Assembly (NCBI GenBank): GCA_946185225.1 | Contig: CAMHIM010000007.1 | Coordinates: forward strand, 1 to 38,871 | DNA: 38,871 bases | Origin: an uncultured Prevotellaceae bacterium | GTDB lineage: Bacteria; Bacteroidota; Bacteroidia; Bacteroidales; Bacteroidaceae | Direction of reading: 5' to 3' | In this document: positions 7,293 to 38,868 of the stretch, piece by piece | How the letters are laid out: each line of letters starts with the position of its first letter | Numbering within the stretch: position 1 is the first letter of the stretch | Translations under genes and position numbers: made by a program | The notes under the pieces: generated by a model | What the model was told of the DNA's origin: nothing | The model's input: the letters and a program-made list of their open reading frames with translations, nothing else | The model's database searches: none

Positions 7293-8757
7293 CACGTTCC
7301 GAGCGGAACGTGACAACCTTCTCGATGCCTGGCTCCAGCTGGGCATCGAGATTTTTGATGCTGGCCCCTCGGACGTCGTCAAGGACTACCGCCGGGCGGT
7401 ACTCCGGACGGAGATAGGAGAAGCTGACGTCGTTGACGTGAAGCCCTTCCACGTGACGGGCATACAGACCGTAGGCGGGCGTCTGGCCGGCAAACTTCGG
7501 CTCGGGGTAGTTGGTTGCCTGTTCGCGGTACTGCTTGTCCACCAGCTCACGGGCACCGCCACCCTGGAACTGCAGTCGGATGTTGTTGAGCCATACGTTT
7601 CTGACGGGTTCACCGGGCATGCCGGTGACGATGATGCTGCAGAGCGAGTCGCAGTCGTCGGCAACGACATTGCTAATCTGGATGTCACGGGCCGACGAGG
7701 GCTGCGTCACCTCCTTGGGTCCGCGGTTGCGGCAGCCAGTGGTGATGTAGATGGGATAGTGGTGGACGTGGCTCATGGTGATGTTCGACACGACGATGTT
7801 CTCCATCTTTCCCTGGTCAACCTCCTCGAAGGCCAGTCCGCTGGAGTACATGAAGGTGCAGTTGGTCAGGGAGATGTTACGATAGCCGCCATTGGACTCG
7901 GTGCCCAGTTTGAAGCGTCCGCACACCCAGCCCACGGGTTCGGGGACATAGGTGCCGTCGAGCAGCGTGCCGCACTTATAACCGGTGATGTTGCAGTTGG
8001 AGACGGCGATGTGCTCACATGCCACAGGCTTCTTCAAGGCATAGGAAGCCTTGAGCACCAGCGCGTCGTCGGAAGGGGTATTGATGCGGCAGTTGGTGAT
8101 GGTCATGTACTTGCAGCAGTCTATGTCGAAGCCGTCGCGGTTAGTGTCGATGGTGACGTTGTCGATGGTCGACAGGTCGCAGCCGGTCATGATGATGCCG
8201 AAGTGTCCGCCGCGATAGATGGTAATGTCACGCAGTGTCACCTGGCGGCAGAGCTTCAGGGCGATGGCCTTGTCGCCGGTACCGATGCTTCCTCCCTGCA
8301 CCTGTCCTGCTTTCTCGGTGTCCTTTTTGGTAAGTCCCTTTCCGTCAATGAGTCCGTGCCCGGTGATGCTCACGTTCGTCTGTCCTTCGGCCCAGATGAG
8401 CGAGTTATGGAAGTAGGTGTGTCCGCCGTCCTGATACTCCGGGAAGCCGCCGAACGACTCGCTCTCGTCGTAGGCTCCCATGGAGGCAGGTGCAGCGAGG
8501 ATGGTACATCCTGCCGAGAGGTGCAGGTCGATGTTGGACTTCAAGCGGATGCTGCCGCACAGATAGGTGCCGGCGGGGAGGAGCACCTGTCCGCCGCCGC
8601 TGCGGACGGCGTCCTCAATGGCTGCATTGACAGCCGGGGAGTCCAGCGTCTTCCCGTCGCCCTTGGCGCCGTAGTCGCGCACGTTGTAGATGCCCGTTGC
8701 TGCACCGGCGGTACCAGCCACTGCGCACAGCAACATTGCCAGTATTGTTTTCTTCAT
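7279..8757 (-). CDS. Glycoside hydrolase family 28 (polygalacturonase / rhamnogalacturonan hydrolase-like)
   Basis: 492 aa, signal peptide; YNVRDYGAKGDGKTLDSPAVNAAIEDA, NTNRDGFDIDCC, PSDDALVLKAS; beta-helix repeats. Confidence 0.9.
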   Translation of the reverse strand: MKKTILAMLLCAVAGTAGAATGIYNVRDYGAKGDGKTLDSPAVNAAIEDAVRSGGGQVLLPAGTYLCGSIRLKSNIDLHLSAGCTILAAPASMGAYDESESFGGFPEYQDGGHTYFHNSLIWAEGQTNVSITGHGLIDGKGLTKKDTEKAGQVQGGSIGTGDKAIALKLCRQVTLRDITIYRGGHFGIIMTGCDLSTIDNVTIDTNRDGFDIDCCKYMTITNCRINTPSDDALVLKASYALKKPVACEHIAVSNCNITGYKCGTLLDGTYVPEPVGWVCGRFKLGTESNGGYRNISLTNCTFMYSSGLAFEEVDQGKMENIVVSNITMSHVHHYPIYITTGCRNRGPKEVTQPSSARDIQISNVVADDCDSLCSIIVTGMPGEPVRNVWLNNIRLQFQGGGARELVDKQYREQATNYPEPKFAGQTPAYGLYARHVEGLHVNDVSFSYLRPEYRPAVVLDDVRGASIKNLDAQLEPGIEKVVTFRSERVSVE

Positions 8758-35105: not shown

Positions 35106-37907
35106 TTACTTATTCTTCGAAGCCTTTCTGCTGCCCTGTTTCCAGGAGATGCCCAGTTTACCTGAGTTCAGCGGTTCAGTGAGTTCGTGGACGACGCAGA
35201 ATGACGTGGTGTAGATGGACGATGCCACGGAGCGTTCTGCGTTGAACCAGTAGTCACGGGCCATGAGGTTGTTCTTCACGGCACCGTTCGTAGCGTCAAT
35301 GAGGTGCTGCGTTCCCTCGCCGTCGGTCACATAGAGTTTCTTGTCGCCGCCGCTGACTTTCACCTCATAGGCCAGTCCGTACTCATTGTTGCTCATGACA
35401 TTGTACTTTCCTGACTTCACCTTGTTGTCAGCAAAGAGCGACGTGTTCTGGAAGTGATAGCGGGCGAAGTCGCTCATCAGTATAATCATATCCTTCACTC
35501 GGTCCTTGTAGTTCTGCAGCTTACTTCCCTCGTACTCGTTGTCGACGGCCTCTTCCATCAGTGCCAGCACCTCGTCCCACGAGGGCAGACCAGCATCATA
35601 GGCCATCTTCATGGCGTCGTTATTGGGGGCATAGAGCGTGTAGTTAAAGGTATTGAACATCTTCACGTTACCGTCCACATCGTCCAGGCTGTTGTTTGTA
35701 GCGCTGTTGGCCTTCTTGTTGGTCTGGGTGAAGATAATGTAGGCATCCATATCGCTGATACCGAAGGCATTGGGATCCTTCGAGATGCCGGCCCACGGCA
35801 GCAGTGTCGTGTTGGAGAAGCCCTTGCAGAACTTCAGGAACTCCGAGAACTGTGGATGGTCGCGCAGCACCTGACTGACGCTGTTACGCGGCGACTCGAT
35901 GACGTGGTTGATGCGGAAGGCGGTACCGTTCTTCTCCTTGTAGACTTTCGTGATAACAGACGGCTCCACGCCGTTGTCAAGCTGCTGACCACTCAGCACC
36001 CGAGCACCCTCGGTGATGCCCGTGAGTTTCACGGCACCACCGTGCTTGGTCTTATAATAGGTATTGTCTCCCAGCACCTCTCCATCATCGAGCACGACGG
36101 TGTGATAGTTCAGGATGTCAATCATCAGCGACTTCCACTGCGAGACATCCACGTTGGCACCGGAGTTCAGCACCGCTCCCACCTCATTGGTGGCGGGGTT
36201 ATAGGCATAGGCCGTACACTTGAGCGGATTGGCCGGAGTCTTGGGGTCGTAGTAGAACTTCAGCACACGCGGCTGGGCGTGCTTGAGATATACAGGGTCG
36301 ATATAATACTTCTCAAAGGCGGCATCGTCGGGAATGAAGAAGCCGTAGTTGGCCTTCATGGCCATGAGGTAATAGTGGAACGAGACACCCAGTTTAGCAT
36401 CGTCCTGCACGGCCCAGTTCATGACGAGCATGTCCGGATAGACCGAAGCGGGAGCCATGACGCTCTGGAACTCGTCCGGTGCAATCATCTCCGTCAGTTT
36501 GTAGATGATGCCGTTGTTGGCAATCTTGATGTCGTATTTACCATCCTCCCTGACGTTCAAGATGTCCAGCGAGATGCCTTTGTATTCGCTGGCATCGCTG
36601 AGGATGGTCGGGAACTTGCTGGGTACGCTTTCCTTGAACGAATCTTCCATAAGGTTCTTCAGGAACTTCGTCAGAATGTCCGGACGCTTGGAGCGCAGCG
36701 AGTCGATGTTCTCCGTCAGATGCTCGACATTATTCTCTGCACCCGTATACTTACCATAGAGGTCAATGAGGTAGGCACCGTCGCCGCCCTCGGTGAAGAA
36801 CTTGATGAAGGCGTCGTCAATAGGCACAAAAATGGTACCGACATCAGAGAGGCTCAGGTCCAGCGTTTCCGACTTATCCTTGTTGCAGTACTGGTTCCAT
36901 CCCGGGTCGAAGGGCAGCAGTTCGCTCACTACGTTGTTGTCCGGGTCCAGGTTCTGACGATGGATGGACTGGTTGTTCAGATAGCGTTTCTCGTATATCA
37001 TGTCGACGGTCGGCATGCCGTTCTGCTCTGCCCATGCGTTGTAGGCATCCGTCAGGCTCTGGTTCTTGTAGGGAGCAGCATAGTACTCCAGGATATGGCT
37101 GAAGTAGGTCGTCTGCTCGTCTTCCAACAGTTCCTGAGCCATGTTTCCCGGAGGAACGATGACATCCTTCATCTGGTGGATATAACCATTCTGACAGGTC
37201 ACGTCGCTCTTCACGATCTGGTCGTCAAAGATGTAGGCCATGCCGTTGCTGTACGGCGTACCGGTAATGATGGCGAAGTCGCTGTTGTCGCCCTGTGTGG
37301 TGATGCCGTTGCTGAGCATGTGCTCACGCGTGAAATGCAGCATCATCGGACGGGAGGCATCGCTCACGACATACATGTCTCCAGCTTCGCGGTAGGGGTC
37401 CCAGTACTTATTGAATTGAGGCATGGCGTCACCGGACTTGATACAGGGGATGGTGTCAATCAGCGACAGGTTTGTCTGGTGCTTCATGGCCATACCCTTC
37501 GCCACCGACGTTGAAGACTGGCTGACGTTCGAGAACATGCCCACCAACAGTGCGTTGTCAAGCATGGAACTGTAGAGCAGCAGCTTCTTCTGTGCCACTG
37601 TCAGTTCACTGTAGTCTTTTACGCCCCACTTGTTTGAACTGAAGAACCGCTTGAAGGCCTCATCATTAGCCGGGAACACAGTCTTCGAACCGGTCCGTGC
37701 CATTACCTCGGTGTAGCCAAGGTCATCGATGAGTTTCAGGTAGTTTCTGAACGTACCCTTCAACGCAGTCGGATTCTTCAATTCCTGATAGATGCTTTCG
37801 TTCAGCCATGAAGGCTTCGAGTCGGCATCCACTGCCTCGTTCTTGTCGACACAGGCAGTCATCAGTCCCGTTAGCACGAGAGAGATACAGAAAATGAGTT
37901 TCTTCAT
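35106..37907 (-). CDS. Large multi-FAS1-domain lipoprotein, first gene of the PUL transcript
   Basis: 933 aa; lipobox LMTAC; FAS1-like segments (FRNYLKLIDDLGYTEVMARTGSKTVFPANDEAFKRFF; GTIFVPIDDAFIKFFTEGG; FNYTLYAPNNDAMKMAYDAGLPS). Confidence 0.83.
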   Translation of the reverse strand: MKKLIFCISLVLTGLMTACVDKNEAVDADSKPSWLNESIYQELKNPTALKGTFRNYLKLIDDLGYTEVMARTGSKTVFPANDEAFKRFFSSNKWGVKDYSELTVAQKKLLLYSSMLDNALLVGMFSNVSQSSTSVAKGMAMKHQTNLSLIDTIPCIKSGDAMPQFNKYWDPYREAGDMYVVSDASRPMMLHFTREHMLSNGITTQGDNSDFAIITGTPYSNGMAYIFDDQIVKSDVTCQNGYIHQMKDVIVPPGNMAQELLEDEQTTYFSHILEYYAAPYKNQSLTDAYNAWAEQNGMPTVDMIYEKRYLNNQSIHRQNLDPDNNVVSELLPFDPGWNQYCNKDKSETLDLSLSDVGTIFVPIDDAFIKFFTEGGDGAYLIDLYGKYTGAENNVEHLTENIDSLRSKRPDILTKFLKNLMEDSFKESVPSKFPTILSDASEYKGISLDILNVREDGKYDIKIANNGIIYKLTEMIAPDEFQSVMAPASVYPDMLVMNWAVQDDAKLGVSFHYYLMAMKANYGFFIPDDAAFEKYYIDPVYLKHAQPRVLKFYYDPKTPANPLKCTAYAYNPATNEVGAVLNSGANVDVSQWKSLMIDILNYHTVVLDDGEVLGDNTYYKTKHGGAVKLTGITEGARVLSGQQLDNGVEPSVITKVYKEKNGTAFRINHVIESPRNSVSQVLRDHPQFSEFLKFCKGFSNTTLLPWAGISKDPNAFGISDMDAYIIFTQTNKKANSATNNSLDDVDGNVKMFNTFNYTLYAPNNDAMKMAYDAGLPSWDEVLALMEEAVDNEYEGSKLQNYKDRVKDMIILMSDFARYHFQNTSLFADNKVKSGKYNVMSNNEYGLAYEVKVSGGDKKLYVTDGEGTQHLIDATNGAVKNNLMARDYWFNAERSVASSIYTTSFCVVHELTEPLNSGKLGISWKQGSRKASKNK

Positions 37908-37994: not shown

Positions 37995-38025
37995 CAAAGA
38001 TAACATTTTTTATTATTCCATCAAA
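37995..38025 (-). promoter_or_regulatory. PUL promoter, Bacteroidota consensus
   Basis: Minus-strand TTTG (38025..38022)-N19-TATCTTTG (38002..37995). Confidence 0.75.
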
Positions 38026-38054
38026 CTTTTTTAGCAGAAACTAAAGTATTTCGC

Positions 38055-38096
38055 AAAAAAAGGGGGGCACAACGCACAATAGCAAGTGGTGCCCCC
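38055..38096 (-). terminator. Rho-independent terminator downstream of the DUF2335-like gene
   Basis: Minus strand GGGGGCAC (38096..38089), 18-nt loop, GTGCCCCC (38070..38063), then C and T7 (38061..38055). Confidence 0.7.
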
Positions 38097-38150
38097 GCGA
38101 GGGAGCACCACTTATTGTTTTATCACACTGGGGGACAGTCCCCTTGTGAG
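38084..38150. repeat. Two-hairpin palindromic repeat, copy A
   Basis: AAGTGGTGCCCCCGCGAGGGAGCACCACTTATTGTTTTATCACACTGGGGGACAGTCCCCTTGTGAG; direct-repeat partner at 38739-38815. Confidence 0.85.
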
Positions 38151-38152
38151 AT

Positions 38153-38518
38153 CTATTCTTCATGTTTGTTCTGTTGAGCTTTCGCATAAACAAACAAGCC
38201 GGCCACAGAAGCAATTGCTCCAATTGCGACTCCTACTGCTGTACCTGAAGCACCATAATACAAAGAAAATCCAACAAGTACAGAGAGCACGATAACACTA
38301 ATAAAAGACAAAACAACAGAAAGGTACGTGATACGTATCCGATTCTTCAACAGTCGTTTCTCGTTTTCATGACGATGTTGCATTTCCTTTTCAGCCATGC
38401 ATATGATGCGTTCTGCCGCATTTGGCACTGCTTCATTATACTTAATAAGGGATTCAGGAGGAGGCAGTGGTCCAGAGAACTGCGAAACCTTAGTAAGTTT
38501 AGCATCCATCTTACTCAT
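38153..38518 (-). CDS. DUF2335-like small membrane protein
   Basis: 121 aa; FSGPLPPPESLIKYNEAVPNAAERIICMAEKEMQHRHENEK then two predicted TM segments; matches the remembered DUF2335 pattern. Confidence 0.7.
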   Translation of the reverse strand: MSKMDAKLTKVSQFSGPLPPPESLIKYNEAVPNAAERIICMAEKEMQHRHENEKRLLKNRIRITYLSVVLSFISVIVLSVLVGFSLYYGASGTAVGVAIGAIASVAGLFVYAKAQQNKHEE

Positions 38519-38669
38519 AGGTACTATACAAAATCATCGACTTCCTTATATCGTCACCTATTTTCAGCCAGTCAGACTGCATTGCCTCGGCATCTGACCG
38601 GGAAAGACGTCCCAACGGATTTCTTCCGATTCCGAAGAAGAACAACACACCATTCATCAATGTACTCAT
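38511..38669 (-). CDS. Small protein of unknown function, translationally coupled to the DUF2335-like gene
   Basis: ORF 38511..38723; a promoter -7 box lies inside the first codons, so the start is more likely MSTLMNGVLFFFG (38669). Ends SDAEAMQSDWLKIGDDIRKSMILYSTYE; 8-nt ATGAGTAA overlap with the next gene. Confidence 0.65.
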   Translation of the reverse strand: MSTLMNGVLFFFGIGRNPLGRLSRSDAEAMQSDWLKIGDDIRKSMILYSTYE

Positions 38670-38692
38670 AAGCCAAACATTTTTTAATGCTG

Positions 38693-38724
38693 CAAAGATA
38701 AGCCTTTTATCCTTTCCCTCCAAA
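38693..38724 (-). promoter_or_regulatory. Promoter of the DUF2335 cassette
   Basis: Minus-strand TTTG (38724..38721)-N20-TATCTTTG (38700..38693). Confidence 0.7.
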
Positions 38725-38738
38725 CTTTTTGACAGAAA

Positions 38739-38815
38739 AGTGGTGCTCCGCGAGGGAGCACCACTTGTTGTTTATCACACTGGGGTATCACACTGGGGGA
38801 CGGCCCCCCCTGTGA
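38739..38815. repeat. Two-hairpin palindromic repeat, copy B
   Basis: AAGTGGTGCTCCGCGAGGGAGCACCACTTGTTGTTTATCACACTGGGGTATCACACTGGGGGACGGCCCCCCCTGTGAG; perfect 12-bp first stem; internal duplication of TATCACACTGGGG. Confidence 0.85.
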
Positions 38816-38868
38816 GGCCGGTAGCGAGACAATGCCTGGTAGTTCTCTTCTGTCAATCCTGTTTTCAT
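38788..38868 (-). pseudogene. Truncated ORF resembling the N-terminus of a HEPN-domain protein, running into repeat copy B
   Basis: Manual minus-strand translation: MKTGLTEENYQALSRYRPHRGGRPPV*; the last residues are encoded by the repeat itself. Confidence 0.4.

Follow-up and report, generated by a model that had tools for sequence, protein, structure and literature searches.

Proteins of the DUF2335 family (PF10097), which is also represented by the phage family phrog_3996 ('membrane protein', moron category), share a GPLPPPxxLxxYxxxxPxAAERI..MAEKExxHR core and have two C-terminal transmembrane (TM) helices. To our knowledge, no DUF2335 protein has a known function, and a literature search brought up two passing mentions. 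One literature entry, 'DUF2335 (phospholipase)', may be a slip for DUF2235. This phospholipase label (PMC6267618) has been set aside as doubtful. The small phage families phrog_27385, phrog_26284 and phrog_10654 have no assigned function, and a curated family joining them or recording a link with DUF2335 was not found in this analysis.

The second point of comparison is formed by the REPs, surveyed in PMC3733652: short imperfect palindromes present in several dispersed copies. REPs of the RAYT type have a GTAG/GTGG tetranucleotide foot. Among the TnpAREP proteins, subclass 2.6 is a Bacteroidetes group with atypical flanking structures (PMC6006769).

Layout of the locus

The window is the whole of contig C7, 38,871 nucleotides (nt) of an uncultured Prevotellaceae bacterium, whose 2.03-Mb assembly consists of 145 contigs and is 67% complete. 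The contig carries SusC-like and fasciclin-type lipoprotein genes with TTTG/TAnnTTTG promoters, a content that would suit a Prevotella-like bacterium. Close to its end lies a small gene pair between two hairpin blocks, the second of which (copy B) is only 54 nt away from the contig end. The features are as follows.

35106-37907, minus strand: gene for a 933-aa lipoprotein of fasciclin type, situated downstream of the pair and serving as locus anchor (ORF; orthologue comparison)
37995-38031, minus strand: Bacteroidota promoter of the fasciclin-type gene, TTTG-N19-TAtcTTTG (pattern match)
38084-38113, no strand: hairpin 1, copy A (alignment of flanks, folding)
38122-38151, no strand: hairpin 2, copy A, REP-like palindrome TCACACTGGGGGACAGTCCCCTTGTGAG (sequence, folding, copies elsewhere)
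38153-38518, minus strand: 121-aa DUF2335 membrane protein (PF10097, 66 bits; phrog_3996, E 1.5e-27; model pLDDT 68)
38511-38669, minus strand: 52-aa partner ORF with C-terminal motif SDWLKIGDDIRKSM, family motif DWxxVGxDxRxAM (phrog_27385, E 4.7e-5; no Pfam or NCBIfam match)
38693-38730, minus strand: Bacteroidota promoter of the pair, TTTG-N20-TAtcTTTG (pattern match; -7 consensus TAnnTTTG, PMC4747536)
38738-38766, no strand: hairpin 1, copy B, 12-bp perfect stem (alignment, folding, terminator scan)
38773-38817, no strand: hairpin 2, copy B; contains a 13-nt partial duplication and reaches into the 3' end of the upstream ORF that the contig end cuts (alignment, folding)

Along the minus strand, an upstream ORF cut by the contig end is followed by hairpin 2, hairpin 1, a promoter and the 52-aa gene, and then by the 121-aa gene, hairpin 2, hairpin 1, a promoter and the fasciclin gene. 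Therefore, every hairpin block is situated 3' of one gene and 5' of the promoter of the next. The two copies of about 70-80 nt, copy A (38084-38151) and copy B (38738-38817), have the same orientation around the pair, as the original prediction had stated: the best local alignment of one flank against the other comprises 46/50 columns with a score of 76, while the maximum of 100 shuffles is 23, and both hairpins fold. As whole blocks, copies A and B reach folding z-scores of -6.2 and -3.6, respectively. Hairpin 1 has a near-perfect stem of 12-14 bp (z about -7 in both copies), while hairpin 2, a GGGGGAC-N-GTCCCC palindrome with the foot CTCACA/TGTGAG, folds weakly on its own (z -2.4 and -1.5). 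Copy B is not a perfect copy, since it contains an extra 13-nt partial duplication (38773-38785) in comparison to copy A. A role in termination is putative, since hairpin 1 scores as a terminator in one copy only, on the strand opposite to the genes. Rfam gave sub-threshold matches only (BTnc231, E 0.29; Guanidine-II, E 0.9). In the ORF cut by the contig end (38790-38868, MKTGLTEENYQALSRYRPHRGGRPPV), the stop codon and the last residues are encoded by hairpin 2 of copy B, and the repeat may therefore have altered the end of this ORF.

The consensus promoter that had been ascribed to the pair is of the Bacteroidota type, and a promoter of the same type, with a spacer of 19 instead of 20 nt, precedes the next gene. 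A sigma-70 promoter scan found nothing, as expected for Bacteroidota. The homology that was thought to run past the hairpins into promoter DNA dissolves into this pattern: CAAAGATAA...CAAACTTTTT, read as its reverse complement, gives the -33/-7 promoter of Bacteroidota (TTTG-N19/20-TATCTTTG). It is generic, being found at 5 places in the own assembly, three of them outside this locus, and being the source of most matches in other genomes; therefore, it does not belong to the repeat unit. The gap between promoter and hairpin 1 is about 40 nt at copy A, and the two abut at copy B.

The DUF2335 protein and its small partner

The 121-aa protein belongs to DUF2335, with 66.3 bits over residues 19-62 (curated cut-off 25 bits), and possesses the family core. 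Its helices 34-88 and 93-120 span hydrophobic stretches (model pLDDT 68), in line with the two C-terminal TM helices of the family. The N-terminus is shorter than in many members; otherwise there is no important difference. The model consists of a short helix, a long helix running into the first TM segment and a second TM helix, but it is of moderate confidence (pLDDT 68, built on five sequences), and for this reason the fold was left unused as evidence. A PDB sequence search yielded nothing of note, Foldseek against viral models gave no match at E<=0.001, and no phage matched the region at the DNA level.

The ORF of the partner overlaps that of the membrane protein by 8 nt (ATGAGTAA), as had been noticed originally. 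Its model shows a short N-terminal helix and a confident C-terminal helix that bears the motif. Homologues of the partner match phrog_26284, phrog_27385 and phrog_10654, and because of these matches the three families, with their common DWxxVGxD-type motif, likely constitute a single superfamily. A short ORF with a DWxxVGxDxRxAM-like motif at its end precedes DUF2335 at 24/30 loci of the genus by pattern, and at about 26/30 when the partners in G084 and G125, recognized by eye, are added. The same arrangement exists in Odoribacter, a KSB1 MAG, a Leptospira plasmid, an E. coli plasmid, Klebsiella and Escherichia phages and two viral contigs. The two ORFs frequently overlap or nearly touch, which suggests translational coupling. 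The partner and DUF2335 are thus a real conserved two-gene module; the pairing of a 52-aa ORF with a DUF2335-like two-TM protein is supported.

The distribution of the module is patchy. DUF2335 was found in 16/200 genomes of the genus by protein search and in 27/399 (about 7%) with the Pfam model; the own assembly has a single DUF2335 gene. Orthologues of the fasciclin gene are present in many relatives; the collections searched contain no genome of this species or of one very close to it. The pair is missing upstream of the orthologue in all nine relatives (9/9) whose upstream region could be read; another two contigs were left out as they ended too soon. At these nine loci, its place is taken by another gene, usually for an exported protein, or by unrelated DNA. 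The pair may have been inserted here, or the neighbourhood may have been rearranged. Present in 27/399 genomes and lacking at the fasciclin locus of these nine relatives, it is an accessory module, which is also carried by phages and plasmids. The neighbourhoods of DUF2335 are varied and include SusC/fasciclin genes, other exported proteins, glycosyltransferases and a mobile island; they are not consistently defence islands. The complete genome G024 has the pair twice, in segments of about 9 kb (C1:2728000-2746000 and 3428000-3446000) that are 95-98% identical, with HU-like, toxin-antitoxin-like and primase-like genes beside it. The local repeats in these two segments (CGCAGATAACGCAGAG type) differ from copy to copy.

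Hairpin 2 as a REP-like element

The two components of the hairpin block have a different distribution. Hairpin 2 occurs elsewhere in the own assembly without DUF2335, once on C20 and three times on C81, with weaker copies on C3 and C94. Together with the two on C7, these are several dispersed copies of a short imperfect palindrome, as in REPs. In a relative (G083), three tandem copies, one of them cut by the contig end, are located upstream of a Y1_Tnp gene and one downstream, all nearly identical to hairpin 2 of copy A. The product of this gene (PF01797, 45.9 bits) has NHVH and YIHQNP motifs that fit TnpAREP subclass 2.6, and both the core and the foot of hairpin 2 are nearly identical to the repeats flanking it. 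On the G083 contig concerned (C25; L143:1-1100), the Y1_Tnp (RAYT-type) gene comes after a tandem series of units about 98 nt long, every one of which contains a CTCACAGGGGGACAGTCCCCTTGTGAG hairpin. By its sequence, hairpin 2 can be considered a dispersed REP-like palindrome of the RAYT-associated type. It is termed REP-like and not REP because it lacks the GTAG/GTGG foot of RAYT-type REPs, having CTCACA/TGTGAG instead. It further differs from these in its few copies, in the lack of a detected RAYT in the own assembly and in the companionship of hairpin 1, which has no counterpart there.

For hairpin 1, no other occurrence was found among 389 genomes of the genus. The full two-hairpin block is therefore locus-specific, which fits a cassette boundary. 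As regards the further copies and REP-associated transposases asked about in the original prediction, hairpin 2 is dispersed and has a Y1_Tnp gene beside it in G083, hairpin 1 is confined to this locus, and a search for Y1_Tnp in the own assembly (67% complete) detected none. In two other genomes, G136 and G051, a nearly identical multi-copy sequence contains two GGGGAC/GTCCCC hairpins (GGTGAATCATGGGGACTGTCCCATCTGTGCGACTTATCGCACTGGGGGACTGTCCCCTGTGATTCGCC) and, after them, a conserved stretch; it resembles a mobile-element end.

Repeats, mobility and the role of the module

Direct repeats bracket the DUF2335 pair at 3 of about 29 loci (the own locus, G111 and G024), each time with a different sequence. 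Among control operons, 3/170 outside this locus are bracketed. The controls were operons of 250-1500 nt from ten 20-kb stretches per genome and the window; since they rely on simple ORF calls (>=60 aa) in sampled stretches, their rates are approximate: 1/33 in the own genome (G000; the pair itself, none of the other 32), 3/65 in G111 and 0/73 in G024. The comparison is post hoc and weak, with a Fisher p of 0.04 when the discovery locus is included and 0.15 when it is not. In the single case of two species with the pair at the same site, G111 and G071, the pairs have about 91% DNA identity and the surrounding intergenic DNA is different. The full bracketing repeat exists in G111 only and is missing from G071; therefore, the repeats change independently of the pair. 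In G111 (L141:6740-6900 and 7600-7700), about 100 nt of AAAAGTGAAAAATGAAAAAT-type repeat flanks the pair on both sides, and in G071 (L142) a CCCCCTTGAGGGGG-type sequence takes the place of the upstream copy. The same repeats do not travel with the pair to other sites, the other DUF2335 loci having different repeats or none.

These data bear on the idea that the two blocks are the ends of a small cassette, gained or lost either when the blocks recombine with each other or when a RAYT acts on the REP-like hairpins. This idea can appeal to significantly similar direct repeats exactly around the pair, to a full block restricted to this locus, to relatives without the pair and to the different direct repeats in G111 and G024, with the excess over controls when the discovery locus is counted. 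It is nevertheless unlikely, given that this excess fades once that locus is dropped, that the repeats are different in every case, that G071 has the same pair at the same site without the bracketing repeat of G111, that hairpin 2 occurs without the pair as well, and that no Y1_Tnp was found in the assembly (67% complete). Of the mobile or recombinational cassette originally proposed, the patchy accessory module, also present on phages and plasmids, is retained, while the repeats as its boundary are not; a repeat-bounded mobile cassette is conceivable but not supported. A general form of the idea holds that intergenic hairpin repeats, REP-like ones included, are ends used in recombination or recognised by a transposase, and that they carry small accessory operons, the DUF2335 pair among them, from one intergenic site to another in Prevotella-like bacteria, with bracketing repeats that differ between lineages; this is very improbable. 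Most simply, hairpins and repeats would build up in the intergenic DNA around accessory genes. The opposite extreme, a normal core gene pair flanked by two plain terminators, would agree with the terminator-like placement of the hairpins 3' of genes and upstream of promoters, but it is contradicted by the distribution of the pair, with DUF2335 in only about 7% of the genus genomes and a locus that is not conserved, and can hardly be credited.

As to function, carriage by phages and plasmids would favour a candidate role in exclusion, competition or defence. A toxin-antitoxin-like or phage-defence module, in which the small protein would serve DUF2335, the membrane effector, as inhibitor or sensor, is conceivable though doubtful. 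The order of the genes, with the small protein first and the membrane protein overlapping it, the patchy distribution and the phage and plasmid carriage are all compatible with it, as is a weak SLATT-like similarity (PADLOC RTasSLATT, E 0.006; NCBIfam SLATT_1, E 0.09). However, the SLATT matches stay below the cut-off (SLATT_1, 12.7 bits versus 41) and do not place the protein in SLATT or a known defence family, the partner has no PADLOC match, and the neighbourhoods are varied without consistent defence islands.

As a whole, the locus is probably best explained by an accessory operon of the mobile-element type that lies beside passive hairpin blocks which are not its vehicle. The pair would be an operon of the kind carried by mobile elements, in which a single promoter is predicted to drive both the small protein and the two-TM membrane protein of the DUF2335 family, their translation being coupled. 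These two proteins would most likely form a joint membrane complex, with a moron-type role in exclusion or competition as the best guess. The blocks, which lie 3' of two consecutive genes and are each made up of what appears to be a RAYT-associated-type REP-like palindrome and a locus-specific stem-loop, probably provide transcript ends or 3' stabilisers. The second block would probably stem from local duplication or repeat insertion and would not mark the vehicle that brought the genes.

The locus is an example of dispersed REP-like hairpins that, by lying close to accessory genes, are easily mistaken for the ends of a cassette. The useful result is that DUF2335 has a conserved partner gene without annotation in several phyla and in phages and plasmids. 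What was a solitary domain of unknown function thereby becomes a two-gene module open to tests of a joint membrane function.
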